Assembly (NCBI GenBank): GCA_002869855.2
Contig: NEWQ02000015.1
Location: 94,458-158,457 of the forward strand
Reading direction: 5' to 3'
Length of the DNA: 64,000 nt
Source of the DNA: Nitrospira sp. CG24D
Lineage (GTDB): Bacteria; Nitrospirota; Nitrospiria; Nitrospirales; Nitrospiraceae
Both the position numbers and the translations under genes were made by a program. The notes under the pieces are model-generated. The model searched no databases. It was not told the origin of the DNA and worked only from the letters and a program-made list of their open reading frames with translations. Below are positions 20,523 through 36,522 of the stretch, piece after piece. Each line of letters starts with the position of its first letter. The first letter of the stretch is position 1.

Positions 20523-20555
20523 GGGGGCGGCCGCTCCTCATGAGCGGCCGCCCCC
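20523..20555 (+). terminator. strong hairpin after flagellin
   Basis: A perfect 14-bp G+C-rich stem (20523-20536 with 20542-20555) has a 5-nt loop and begins 8 nt after the flagellin stop. No T-run follows, so it may act as a partial terminator or a 3' stabiliser that raises flagellin mRNA over the downstream flaG-fliD genes. Confidence 0.7.
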
Positions 20556-28296: not shown

Positions 28297-28935
28297 ATGA
28301 TTTCAGGAGCCAACGTGAGTGCCAGCGCTTCCTCGAAGGGCCTGGACGACGATATTGACGCCGAGAATCCCGATACCGCTCTCTATGAGAAGCTCGGTGA
28401 ACTGACCCGTTTCATCGACAAGACGATCAAGACCATCTCACAGTTCAGCGCCCCAATGAGCGCGACGTCCGAACAGCTGCCTGACGCAACCGCGCATCTA
28501 CGCGACCTACGCAAGCTGACAGAAGACGGCACGCATAAAGTCATGCAGCTCGTCGAAACGGTAGAGGACAATCACAAGCGCGTCTTCGCTCAACTGGATG
28601 CCCTTGCCCAGCATCTGACCGGCGATGAGGCGGCAGCCCTTGCATCCATCCGCGCCGGATTGAAGAAAGACGATAAGCCGCTCATCGATATCATCACCGC
28701 CTTGTCGTTCCAAGACCTCGTGGCGCAACGCGTCAACAAGCTCGTGACCATCGTCGAGGAGGTCGAGCACAAGCTGCTCGAACTGGTCGTCGTCTTCGGC
28801 CCCTACACCAAAGGAGCGGGAAAAGAAGAGGCCGGGAAGGCCTCGGAAATGCTGAAGCAGTTGGAAGCGTCGAAGAATACTTCGATGAATCAGGATGTAG
28901 CCGATGAAATCCTGAAACAGTTCGGCTTTAACTGA
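28297..28935 (+). CDS. cheZ: CheY-P phosphatase CheZ
   Basis: This 212-residue protein has the CheZ long helical hairpin with the catalytic segment ALSFQDLVAQRVNKL and the C-terminal CheY-binding peptide ADEILKQFGF, which matches the end of E. coli CheZ. It dephosphorylates CheY-P. It lies between cheY and cheA. The first of the unusual repeat-armed hairpins begins 3 nt after its stop. Confidence 0.95.
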   Translation: MISGANVSASASSKGLDDDIDAENPDTALYEKLGELTRFIDKTIKTISQFSAPMSATSEQLPDATAHLRDLRKLTEDGTHKVMQLVETVEDNHKRVFAQLDALAQHLTGDEAAALASIRAGLKKDDKPLIDIITALSFQDLVAQRVNKLVTIVEEVEHKLLELVVVFGPYTKGAGKEEAGKASEMLKQLEASKNTSMNQDVADEILKQFGFN

Positions 28936-28937
28936 TC

Positions 28938-29012
28938 GAGTGATCGGTGAAGAGTGATGAGTGAGCTGCGGGTCCTCCAATACGCATCACTAATCACTCA
29001 TCACACATCACG
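28938..29012. repeat. intergenic hairpin with heptad-repeat arms (element 1)
   Basis: The left arm (28938-28965) is four degenerate 7-mers of GAGTGAT type. The right arm (28985-29012) is four 7-mers of CATCACT type, the reverse complement. A core of 11 bp is perfect (28954-28964 with 28994-29004). The loop is 19 nt. The element fills the cheZ-cheA gap and ends just before the cheA ribosome site. Confidence 0.85.
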
Positions 29013-29032
29013 CGTTCCATCCGGAGGGTGCC

Positions 29033-30910
29033 ATGGACGATGAGACTCAGGAAATCCTCAACGACTTTCTGACCGAAACGACGGAAATGATCGACGGACT
29101 CGATCAGAAGTTCGTCGAGCTGGAAACGCAGCCGGACAATAAAGATCTCCTCAATGAGATCTTCCGGGCCATGCACAGCATGAAAGGCTCGGCCGGCTTC
29201 CTGGGATTCAATCATCTCGTCGATGTCACCCATCGAGCCGAAAGCATTCTAAATAAGCTTCGGCAAGGAGAAATGGCGGTCGTTCCGGAAATCATCACGG
29301 TCATTCTGGAAACCGTCGATACCGTCAAGCTCATCATGACCGAGATTCGGGCGTCCGGGACTGACGTGAAAATTCCCGTCGAGGCCATGTCCCAGAAACT
29401 CGACGATATTCTCGCAGGTAAACTCAGTGGGACAGCAACCGCACCGAAGCCTCCTGTCACACCAGCGCCCGTCGCCACGCCAGAACTCTCACAGCCCACC
29501 GCTCCGCCGCCTCCCCAGTTGGGAGAAATTCTCGTCAACGAGGGGCTTGCGACCAAGGAGCAGGTCTTCGATGCCTTGACGGAACAATCCAAACAGTCTG
29601 ACCCCAAACAACCGCTCGGGGAATTGCTCATTCAGGCGAAAGCCATCTCAGAAAAAGCGCTCGATCAAGCCTTACAGAAGCAAGAAAAGCATCCCAAGGC
29701 CGAAGAGGATGCCACCATCCGAGTGGAAACGAGACGACTCGACTCCGTCATGAATCTCGTCGGTGAATTGGTCCTCGGGAGAAACCGCCTGATAAAGATC
29801 GGCGGGGTACTTGAGCAAACCCACGAAACGGACCCTCAGGTCCGTGCGCTCAGCGAAACACTCACACAGCTGAATCTCGTGACGACAGACCTGCAACTCG
29901 CCGTCATGAAGACCCGCATGCTGCCAATCAAAAAAGTGATGGCCAAGTTGCCCCGCATGGTGCGAGACCTGTCTTCGAAGCTTGGCAAGCAGGTCAGATT
30001 GGAAACCCATGGAGAAGAAACGGAGCTCGATAAGTCGGTAGCCGACGAAATCGGCGATCCGCTCGTGCACCTGGTCCGCAATGCCATCGATCACGGCATC
30101 GAAATGCCGACGGAGCGGCATGCAGCCAGAAAACCCAGCGAGGGCCTGCTGCGCATAGCCGCCAGCCAGGAAGGCAACAGCATCGTCATCCGCATCCAGG
30201 ACGACGGAAAAGGCATCGCACTCAGCAAGATCAAAGCCAAAGCTCTGCAGAAGGGACTCATCAGCGAGGCGGAGTTGGCTGGCCTGGAACCGCGCGAAGT
30301 GGTCAATCTGATCTTCCTGCCGGGCTTCAGCACGGCCGAGAAAGTCACGGATGTCTCAGGCCGCGGAGTCGGCATGGATGTCGTCCGAACCAACATCCGC
30401 AAGATGAACGGGACGGTGGAGATAGAATCCGAAGAAGGCAAGGGCAGTCTCATCACGATCAAGCTGCCGCTGACCATCGCCATCATTCAGGCGCTCATGG
30501 TTGAAGTGGAACGGGCGACCTTTGCCATTCCCTTGAGTTCGGTCATCGAGGCGGTGCGTATTTCTAAATCTGAAATCAAGACCATCAATGGACGGGAGGT
30601 CTTGCACCTCCGCGATCGGGTCCTCCCGTTGCTGCGTCTGGCAAAAGAGTTTGCAATTCCGACAGACAAGGAACGGGACCGGTTCTACGTGGTGGTCGCA
30701 GCACTCGGGGATCGGCGCATCGGCGTCGTCGTCGATGAATTACGGTCGCAGGAAGAAGTCGTCATCAAGTCCATTTGGGAGTACCTGGACAGCATCAAGG
30801 GCATTTCCGGCGCCACGATTACCGGCGAAGGAAAGGTGGTGCTCATTCTGGATATTTCAGAACTCGTAGAGAACGCCCAAGCCTGGCATGCCTCCGCCAT
30901 GGTGGCCTAG
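29033..30910 (+). CDS. cheA: chemotaxis histidine kinase CheA
   Basis: This 625-residue protein has an HPt domain (about 1-105) with phosphorylated H48 in AMHSMKGSAGF. A Pro-rich linker follows. Then come two copies of a short motif (GEILVNEGLATKEQVF at about 163, PLGELLIQAKAISEKAL at about 198) resembling the MshEN-type repeat. The dimerisation domain (from about 227), the HATPase (N box VRNAIDHG, G boxes DDGKGI and GRGVGM) and a C-terminal CheW-like domain (about 480-620) complete it. The usual P2 CheY-binding domain is not seen between HPt and P3. It is the central kinase of the operon. Confidence 0.96.
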   Translation: MDDETQEILNDFLTETTEMIDGLDQKFVELETQPDNKDLLNEIFRAMHSMKGSAGFLGFNHLVDVTHRAESILNKLRQGEMAVVPEIITVILETVDTVKLIMTEIRASGTDVKIPVEAMSQKLDDILAGKLSGTATAPKPPVTPAPVATPELSQPTAPPPPQLGEILVNEGLATKEQVFDALTEQSKQSDPKQPLGELLIQAKAISEKALDQALQKQEKHPKAEEDATIRVETRRLDSVMNLVGELVLGRNRLIKIGGVLEQTHETDPQVRALSETLTQLNLVTTDLQLAVMKTRMLPIKKVMAKLPRMVRDLSSKLGKQVRLETHGEETELDKSVADEIGDPLVHLVRNAIDHGIEMPTERHAARKPSEGLLRIAASQEGNSIVIRIQDDGKGIALSKIKAKALQKGLISEAELAGLEPREVVNLIFLPGFSTAEKVTDVSGRGVGMDVVRTNIRKMNGTVEIESEEGKGSLITIKLPLTIAIIQALMVEVERATFAIPLSSVIEAVRISKSEIKTINGREVLHLRDRVLPLLRLAKEFAIPTDKERDRFYVVVAALGDRRIGVVVDELRSQEEVVIKSIWEYLDSIKGISGATITGEGKVVLILDISELVENAQAWHASAMVA

Positions 30911-35684: not shown

Positions 35685-36455
35685 GTGGATATAGCGACCA
35701 TACTCGGAATCGTACTCTCAATCGGATCGATCATCGGCGGGCAGGCCCTGGAAGGCGGCCACTTGAGCTCCATCATGCAGCTCACGGCCTTCATCATCGT
35801 GGCCGGAGGCACGATCGGCGCCTGTTGCGTACAAAATCCGCTGTCGGTCGTGCTCAAGTCCATCGGATCGCTCGGCTTGGTGTTCGGCAATACCCCCATC
35901 GATACCAAAAGCACAATCAAGTTGATTCTGGATCTGGCCACCGTGTCGCGCAAACAGGGATTACTGGCGCTGGAAGGCAAACTCAAGGAAATCAAGGATC
36001 CGTTCTTCAAGAAGGGCGTGCAGCTCATCGTGGACGGGACCGACCCGAAAGCCGTGCACGAAATCCTTGAAATCGAAGTCGAGCATCACGAGGAGGCCGG
36101 CGTCAAGGCGGCCAAGGTATGGGAAGCCGCGGGCGGCTACGCTCCGACCGTCGGCATCTTGGGCGCGGTCTTGGGACTGATCCACGTGATGGAAAATCTG
36201 GCGGACCCCTCCAAGCTGGGCGGCGGTATCGCGGTGGCCTTCGTCGCCACGGTGTACGGCGTCGGTCTCGCGAACCTGTTTTTCCTGCCCTTCGCGAACA
36301 AGATCAAGATGAAGCTGAAGGAAGAGTCCGGGGCGCGCAACATCATCATCATGGGGCTGGTCGGCCTGGCCCAAGGCGAGAATCCCCGGTTGCTTCAGGA
36401 AAAACTGGAAAGCTTCCTGCCCCACGAGGAACGCTCGAAGGAGGCAAAGAAGTGA
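35685..36455 (+). CDS. motA: flagellar motor stator protein MotA
   Basis: This 256-residue membrane protein has four TM segments: TM1-2 at residues about 2-50, TM3-4 at about 150-205. The large cytoplasmic loop has IEVEHHEEAGVKAAKVWE, and GGYAPTVGILGAVLGLIHVM with GGGIAVAFVATVYGVGLAN are typical. The start is GTG 35685. With MotB it forms the ion-conducting stator. Its stop codon lies inside the left arm of the second repeat-armed hairpin. Confidence 0.95.
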   Translation: MDIATILGIVLSIGSIIGGQALEGGHLSSIMQLTAFIIVAGGTIGACCVQNPLSVVLKSIGSLGLVFGNTPIDTKSTIKLILDLATVSRKQGLLALEGKLKEIKDPFFKKGVQLIVDGTDPKAVHEILEIEVEHHEEAGVKAAKVWEAAGGYAPTVGILGAVLGLIHVMENLADPSKLGGGIAVAFVATVYGVGLANLFFLPFANKIKMKLKEESGARNIIIMGLVGLAQGENPRLLQEKLESFLPHEERSKEAKK

Positions 36456-36522
36456 AGCGTCCTTCGTGAAGCGTATCTCGTTCTGAACTCGGACGCTTCA
36501 CGTTTCGCGCTTCACCCTTCAC
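36452..36522. repeat. intergenic hairpin with heptad-repeat arms (element 2)
   Basis: The left arm (36452-36479) has GTGAAGC twice with a 14-nt period (two heptads). The right arm (36493-36522) holds heptads of ACGCTTC and GCGCTTC type. An 11-bp stretch is perfectly complementary (36452-36462 with 36491-36501). It lies between motA and motB and contains the motA stop codon. The architecture matches the cheZ-cheA element, but the word is different. Confidence 0.85.

Follow-up and report, generated by a model that had tools for sequence, protein, structure and literature searches.

The gap between cheZ and cheA in this Nitrospira genome is occupied by a hairpin whose two arms are arrays of degenerate heptads, and at the same gene junction in relatives the 7-nt period, the fold-back, and the position between the stop codon and the Shine-Dalgarno (SD) site outlive the sequence itself, which is unusual for a repeat. 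The explanation that we favor, and to which we give about an even chance, is that this is a vertically inherited heptad palindrome maintained by DNA slippage and arm-to-arm template switching, and that its transcript forms a spacer hairpin, incidental or of slight use.

The cheZ-cheA hairpin and its fold

The element was studied in the window, by which we mean the whole 64,000-nt stretch of DNA analyzed; it belongs to a Nitrospira genome (G000) of 3.41 Mb in 87 contigs, 90% complete. Gene calls came from a simple hexamer script rather than a published caller. The region is laid out as follows.

28297..28935, + strand: cheZ, 212 aa, the upstream gene; stop codon at 28933-28935 (H1 annotation CheZ/CheA/CheY)
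28936..29032, + strand: cheZ-cheA intergenic gap, 97 nt, nearly all taken up by the hairpin element
28940..28967, + strand: 5' arm, GTGATCG GTGAAGA GTGATGA GTGAGCT, four degenerate in-phase heptads
28968..28985, + strand: loop, GCGGGTCCTCCAATACGC, whose length varies with the pairing register
28986..29013, + strand: 3' arm, ATCACTA ATCACTC ATCACAC ATCACGC, invariant ATCAC plus two variable bases
29023..29027, + strand: GGAGG, putative Shine-Dalgarno-like site of cheA, judged by its position; outside the hairpin
29033..30910, + strand: cheA, 625 aa, the downstream gene, starting at 29033

The first heptad of the 5' arm begins 4 nt past the cheZ stop codon, and each arm consists of four 7-mers, with the consensus GTGAtNN on the left and ATCACNN on the right. 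The preliminary description of the gap as a heptad hairpin was confirmed, and both arms are picked up by Tandem Repeats Finder. When the gap itself was shuffled, its lag-7 score of 17/20 was matched in 0 of 20,000 shuffles and its inverted score of 14/16 in 3 of 3,000. Folded as RNA, the element has a minimum free energy (MFE) of -35.7 kcal/mol (z = -3.6; 1 of 200 shuffles was equally good), and among the gapless hairpins of three genomes (1,422-odd intergenic gaps) it is the 7th strongest. The periodicity of the arms lets them pair in alternative registers. The 11-bp perfect core described earlier is present (GTGATGAGTGA/TCACTCATCAC), but it does not go with the 19-nt loop assigned to it, since in that register the arms stand 29 nt apart. 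One heptad away lies the MFE register, with 7 + 5 bp, a single mismatch, and a shorter loop; core and MFE fold being different registers, the 11-bp core and the 19-nt loop never coexist.

Period-7 hairpins in Nitrospira gaps

That such an element would represent a class, not a one-off, was borne out, with more lag-7 arrays than in shuffles and a tendency of these arrays to coincide with inverted repeats. The survey sample comprised 0.84 Mb of the same genome, 1.2 Mb of G022, and 0.4 Mb each of G025 and G024, plus named loci. In the 843 kb of the window's own genome that were scanned (N-runs left out), 20-nt windows repeating themselves at lag 7 were present in 8 gaps, versus 0.5 in shuffles, and the same scan returned no such windows at lags 6 and 8. 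When every MFE stem of 14 bp or more was tested for periodicity, no lag-7 signal emerged, since loose stems swamp it; the period was retested with strict gapless stems and then with direct plus inverted windows. Strict hairpins with a score of at least 13 numbered 75 in three genomes, compared to 7 in shuffles, and their arms displayed an excess of lag-7 self-matches (z = +3.1 and +3.8 for the two highest score classes), with lag-8 self-matches below expectation. Lag-7 arrays and inverted repeats occurred together in 10 gaps versus 3.0 expected (Fisher p = 3e-4). With five samples pooled, period-7 arrays were detected in 29 of 1,775 Nitrospira gaps, against ~0.5 in shuffles. Outside Nitrospira they were few, both in Bacillaceae (2 versus 0.5 in shuffles) and in mixed other phyla (2 versus 1); Lysobacteraceae had some (5 versus 1.5 in shuffles), which fits the known Xanthomonas repeats. 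The Lysobacteraceae loci, L054-L114 from Stenotrophomonas-type genomes, carry GTGATTG/AATCACC heptad arrays and one AATCCCC array, and the GTGATTG/AATCACC core is close to the GTGAT word of Nitrospira.

The position of the arrays is biased as well. Among 36 heptad gaps, 30 separate co-directional genes, 4 convergent genes, and 2 divergent genes. Arrays were found in 18 of 410 co-directional gaps of 60-130 nt (4.4%), versus 1-2% elsewhere, and were rare between divergent genes (2/279). We considered whether the 7-nt step could place stop codons in all frames. The arrays are TGA rich (3.1-fold over column-permuted arrays), yet they are poor in TAG, and arrays at orthologous sites do not count as independent; this reading is therefore not claimed. 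A strict unit of five fixed and two variable bases fits the 3' arm of the cheZ-cheA element and received weak support as a general rule, in that the two unit positions with the lowest conservation lie side by side more often than by chance (0.44 versus 0.33, p = 0.011).

Two further elements had been reported within 13 kb. Both are real, but the identical 7-nt plan holds only for the first of them; the second has a 9-nt period.

36452..36522, + strand: sibling element in the motA-motB gap, GTGAAGC/GCTTCAC heptads, beginning on the motA stop codon
41600..41694, + strand: element of related plan with 9-nt units, GGTCTGTCT / AGACAGACC

The latter is a near-perfect 90-nt palindrome built of 9-nt units (GGTCTGTCT). 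A second copy of this word lies elsewhere in the genome (C18:27418-27498), and the 9-nt array is absent from the orthologous gaps of G022 and G025. A lag-13 signal seen in the survey derives largely from a separate, dispersed palindrome of ~125 bp (GCAGGCTGCTCAAAAAGGCCGTCCAGCAAGGCCGCAGC...GTACG...), which has a MITE- or REP-like look and many copies in G000, G022, and G025, including these.

G000: C7:10575-10700; C87:55525-55763; C10:88732-89183
G022: C1:588633-588755; 717226-717350

Plan and words at the same site in relatives

The cheZ-cheA element is present across the clade, fresh or decayed. A strong GTGATGA hairpin occupies the gap in N. moscoviensis (L041) and G030, and an equally regular hairpin spelled GCGAGGG GCTAGAG / CTCGCCT CGCACCT occupies it in Nitrospiraceae nzgw274 (L039); G025, G022, G026, G033, and others carry decayed, longer forms, and in L040/L042 the gap is only 17 nt. 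In some thirty species, the motA-motB gap holds words of the types GTGAAGC, GTGATGA, GGTCATT, GAAACCT, and GAGGTT, together with one 8-nt version and one unrelated hairpin. The gap is merely 18 and 21 nt in L038 and G022, with no hairpin; these short gaps and the 17-nt cheZ-cheA gap indicate that the hairpin is dispensable. In L015 (G017), a long non-heptad hairpin (GAGGGGGTCAGGAACTATTTG...CAAATTGTTCCTGACCCC) replaces the heptad element at motA-motB, as if the site attracted hairpins of any kind.

Where the words differ between species, the two arms have changed together. At motA-motB, the arms of one species fold with -28.5 kcal/mol, versus -19.6 kcal/mol when arms are swapped between species (p = 1.6e-5); at cheZ-cheA, the values are -37.0 and -31.7 kcal/mol (p = 0.005). 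Each center was picked to maximize own pairing, which is covered in part by the control on shuffled gaps, where the difference was only -1 to -3. The number of units shifts in exact 7-nt steps: the left arm of G012 has one unit more than that of G001, and the element measures 72 nt in G030 versus 65 nt in G000. These are the steps that expansion or contraction would give, and the "self-expanding" character proposed for the element is plausible. The ortholog of a heptad gap was itself a heptad gap in 2 of 7 comparisons, both at the che/mot sites; for other gaps the count was 0 of 209. Vertical inheritance at the che site is supported by the series of orthologs.

The words themselves form dialects. 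Across 59 Nitrospira genomes, we counted perfect matches to three consecutive units; reverse-pattern controls were near zero, and match counts exceed the number of sites because matches overlap within long arrays. GTGATNN had 124 matches in G077 and 53 in G060, and 0-2 in most genomes. GAAACNN reached 37 in G081, 34 in G023, 32 in G011, and 31 in G006, with 0 in G077; CTGAGNN reached 49 in G080 and 23 in G024, and GTGAANC had moderate counts in many genomes. On the cheZ tree, genomes with the GAAAC dialect group together, with 3 changes where shuffles give 7.1. Close pairs of opposite arrays in our place lists all run from GTGAT to ATCAC (12:0), that is, with GTGAT as the 5' arm. The window's own genome uses many different heptad words, and the cheZ-cheA element is its sole perfect GTGATNN x3 array. 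GTGATNN reappears patchily in other Nitrospirota. In some of these (G107, G267, and G292), the reverse control pattern TAGTGNNTAGTGNNTAGTG is itself frequent (10 + 26 in G107), which indicates that other heptad words are abundant there.

Known repeats and competing explanations

The preliminary description called the class undescribed, which is too strong, since inverted pairs of intergenic heptamer arrays have already been reported in Xanthomonas (PMC4692102). Those GGGAATC / GGGANTN heptamers are mostly intergenic and near the upstream open reading frame, in ~4 degenerate units; 70-75 convergent inverted pairs per genome are able to form stem-loops, length and sequence vary between species at the same gene pairs, and no function was found (PMC4692102). 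The same source lists a Nostoc heptamer repeat, GGGGA(C/T)T (PMC4692102). The Nitrospira elements share with the Xanthomonas type a 7-nt tandem unit beyond chance, co-directional intergenic position, and convergent inverted pairs. However, Xanthomonas uses one G-rich word per genome, with G-quadruplex potential, whereas Nitrospira words are mostly not G-quadruplex formers (a core test on the cheZ-cheA element found its GTGANNN units to be without a GGG tract) and differ by site and by species at the same gap while the fold-back plan persists. What is new relative to Xanthomonas is the use of different words at the same site, the species dialects, the fixed polarity, and the covariation of the arms. 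The TAACTGA repeats of Beggiatoaceae are likewise heptamer arrays in the intergenic DNA of many genes, but they are built from one word, occur almost exclusively as direct repeats for which no structure is predicted, and sit immediately ahead of start codons (PMC4679880). The cheZ-cheA element has another word, is inverted, and ends ~20 nt before cheA. The cyanobacterial STRR heptamers, attributed to Mazel (1990) and Vioque (1997), are reportedly degenerate 7-nt tandem repeats as well. At the cheZ-cheA element, Rfam 15 gave no match over the gathering score. The arms of template-switch quasipalindromes are likewise inverted repeats made alike (PMC7202029 and PMC8604942). The arms of the Nitrospira elements, too, change together between relatives, as the comparison of own with swapped pairing demonstrates. 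To our knowledge, none of the described template-switch quasipalindromes is built from tandem heptads, and a search of the literature, subscription journals aside, found no paper on such elements in Nitrospira.

Under the explanation that we favor, the cheZ-cheA palindrome of 7-nt tandem units would be one instance of a Nitrospira-wide class. Replication slippage would add and remove tandem units, and template switching across the hairpin would copy one arm into the other, so that the arms stay complementary; words would drift and be replaced jointly in both arms while the period and the fold-back plan persist. Such an element would be tolerated where a stop codon and the following ribosome-binding site leave a gap, and would presumably be transcribed as a stem-loop spacer, and any effect on cheZ/cheA dosage, itself hypothetical, would be a by-product or a mild advantage. 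Homogenization of inverted-repeat arms by template switching is described in PMC8604942 and PMC7202029, and a tie between heptamer slippage and the polymerase footprint was proposed by Mrazek in 2007, as quoted in PMC4679880 and PMC4692102. In 42 hairpins, a small sample, the mismatches comprised 27 G-U and 33 A-C (p = 0.52). This lack of G-U bias leaves selection at the RNA level unsupported, and the symmetry of the mismatches, the 7-nt steps, and the covariation of the arms together fit a DNA process of slippage and template switching. Two observations go against it: slippage at independent sites, taken alone, leaves the same word at dozens of sites (124 matches in G077) unexplained, and so does it leave the fixed 5' polarity of GTGAT. 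For the shared dialect and the polarity, either spread between sites or a constraint acting in trans would be needed in addition.

The other readings have to be weighed against the same data. It is conceivable, though rather unlikely, that selection keeps the transcribed stem-loop as a spacer within the operon, where it would protect the mRNA, take part in its processing, or uncouple translation, thereby setting the CheZ:CheA ratio. The strong fold, its place between the stop codon and the SD site, its presence, fresh or decayed, in the cheZ-cheA gaps of the clade, and the enrichment of heptad arrays in co-directional 60-130-nt gaps with their rarity between divergent genes would all suit such a role, and intergenic stem-loops govern operon mRNA processing in other systems (PMC10311766). 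However, G-U does not exceed A-C among the mismatches, several members of the clade have decayed hairpins, and the close relatives L038 and G022 lack the motA-motB hairpin. That the cheZ-cheA gap holds an intrinsic terminator or attenuator is extremely improbable: the stem-loop is stable and intergenic, but its loop is large, its stem has internal mismatches, no T-run follows the 3' arm, and a terminator scan found none at this gap.

If each dialect were a REP- or MITE-like family of copies that moved among intergenic sites, an unlikely reading, then the species-specific abundance against zero or near-zero reverse controls and the fixed polarity would be expected, and G019 and G027 do carry elements of the motA-motB type elsewhere, up to 90% identical. 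The cheZ-cheA element, by contrast, has no second full copy in its own genome, where the next matches are 14-26 nt; similarity between sites is mostly limited to the short unit, and the che site is vertically inherited. REP/RAYT elements are likewise short intergenic palindromes with many copies in some genomes, but the cheZ-cheA element differs from them in its periodic arms and in having no conserved dispersed copy. The Y1/RAYT transposase is the usual spreader of bacterial palindromes, and searches for the RAYT-type Y1 transposase (PF01797) found 0 in the 90% complete G000 and 0 in the complete G077, which has the most GTGAT arrays. We regard as quite improbable a dedicated trans-acting factor, either templated copying machinery or a nucleic-acid-binding protein with a 7-nt step, that writes or reads the dialects and whose shifts in specificity respell them genome-wide; the dialects would then amount to one short core per 7 nt, in fixed polarity and inverted pairs, at dozens of intergenic sites. 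Under the very doubtful reading of a binding array, a trans-acting protein would read five fixed bases every 7 nt, its species-specific specificity would give the dialects, and the inversion would serve dimers or hairpin recognition. The ATCAC-NN x4 structure of the 3' arm, the tendency of the two least conserved bases of the unit to be adjacent, the fixed polarity, and the clustering of the dialect on the cheZ tree are consistent with this; against it, neighboring elements of one genome are spelled differently, the 5+2 pattern is weak and missing from many arrays, and no candidate protein was found.

If the process is one of DNA, Nitrospira gaps would preserve a natural record, on the scale of evolution, of slippage and of template switching between arms, and would be of use in explaining why heptamers are in excess in bacteria; a factor that reads or writes the dialect, if there is one, would constitute a new genome-wide system. 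Whichever reading holds, heptad hairpins should not be annotated as terminators or REPs. The window also contains a perfect 14-bp hairpin of another kind (GGGGGCGGCCGCTC/GAGCGGCCGCCCCC) at 20523-20555, within a 66-nt gap; it is non-periodic and without a T-run, and the gap holds a strong hairpin in all relatives seen, with bases often changed on both sides.
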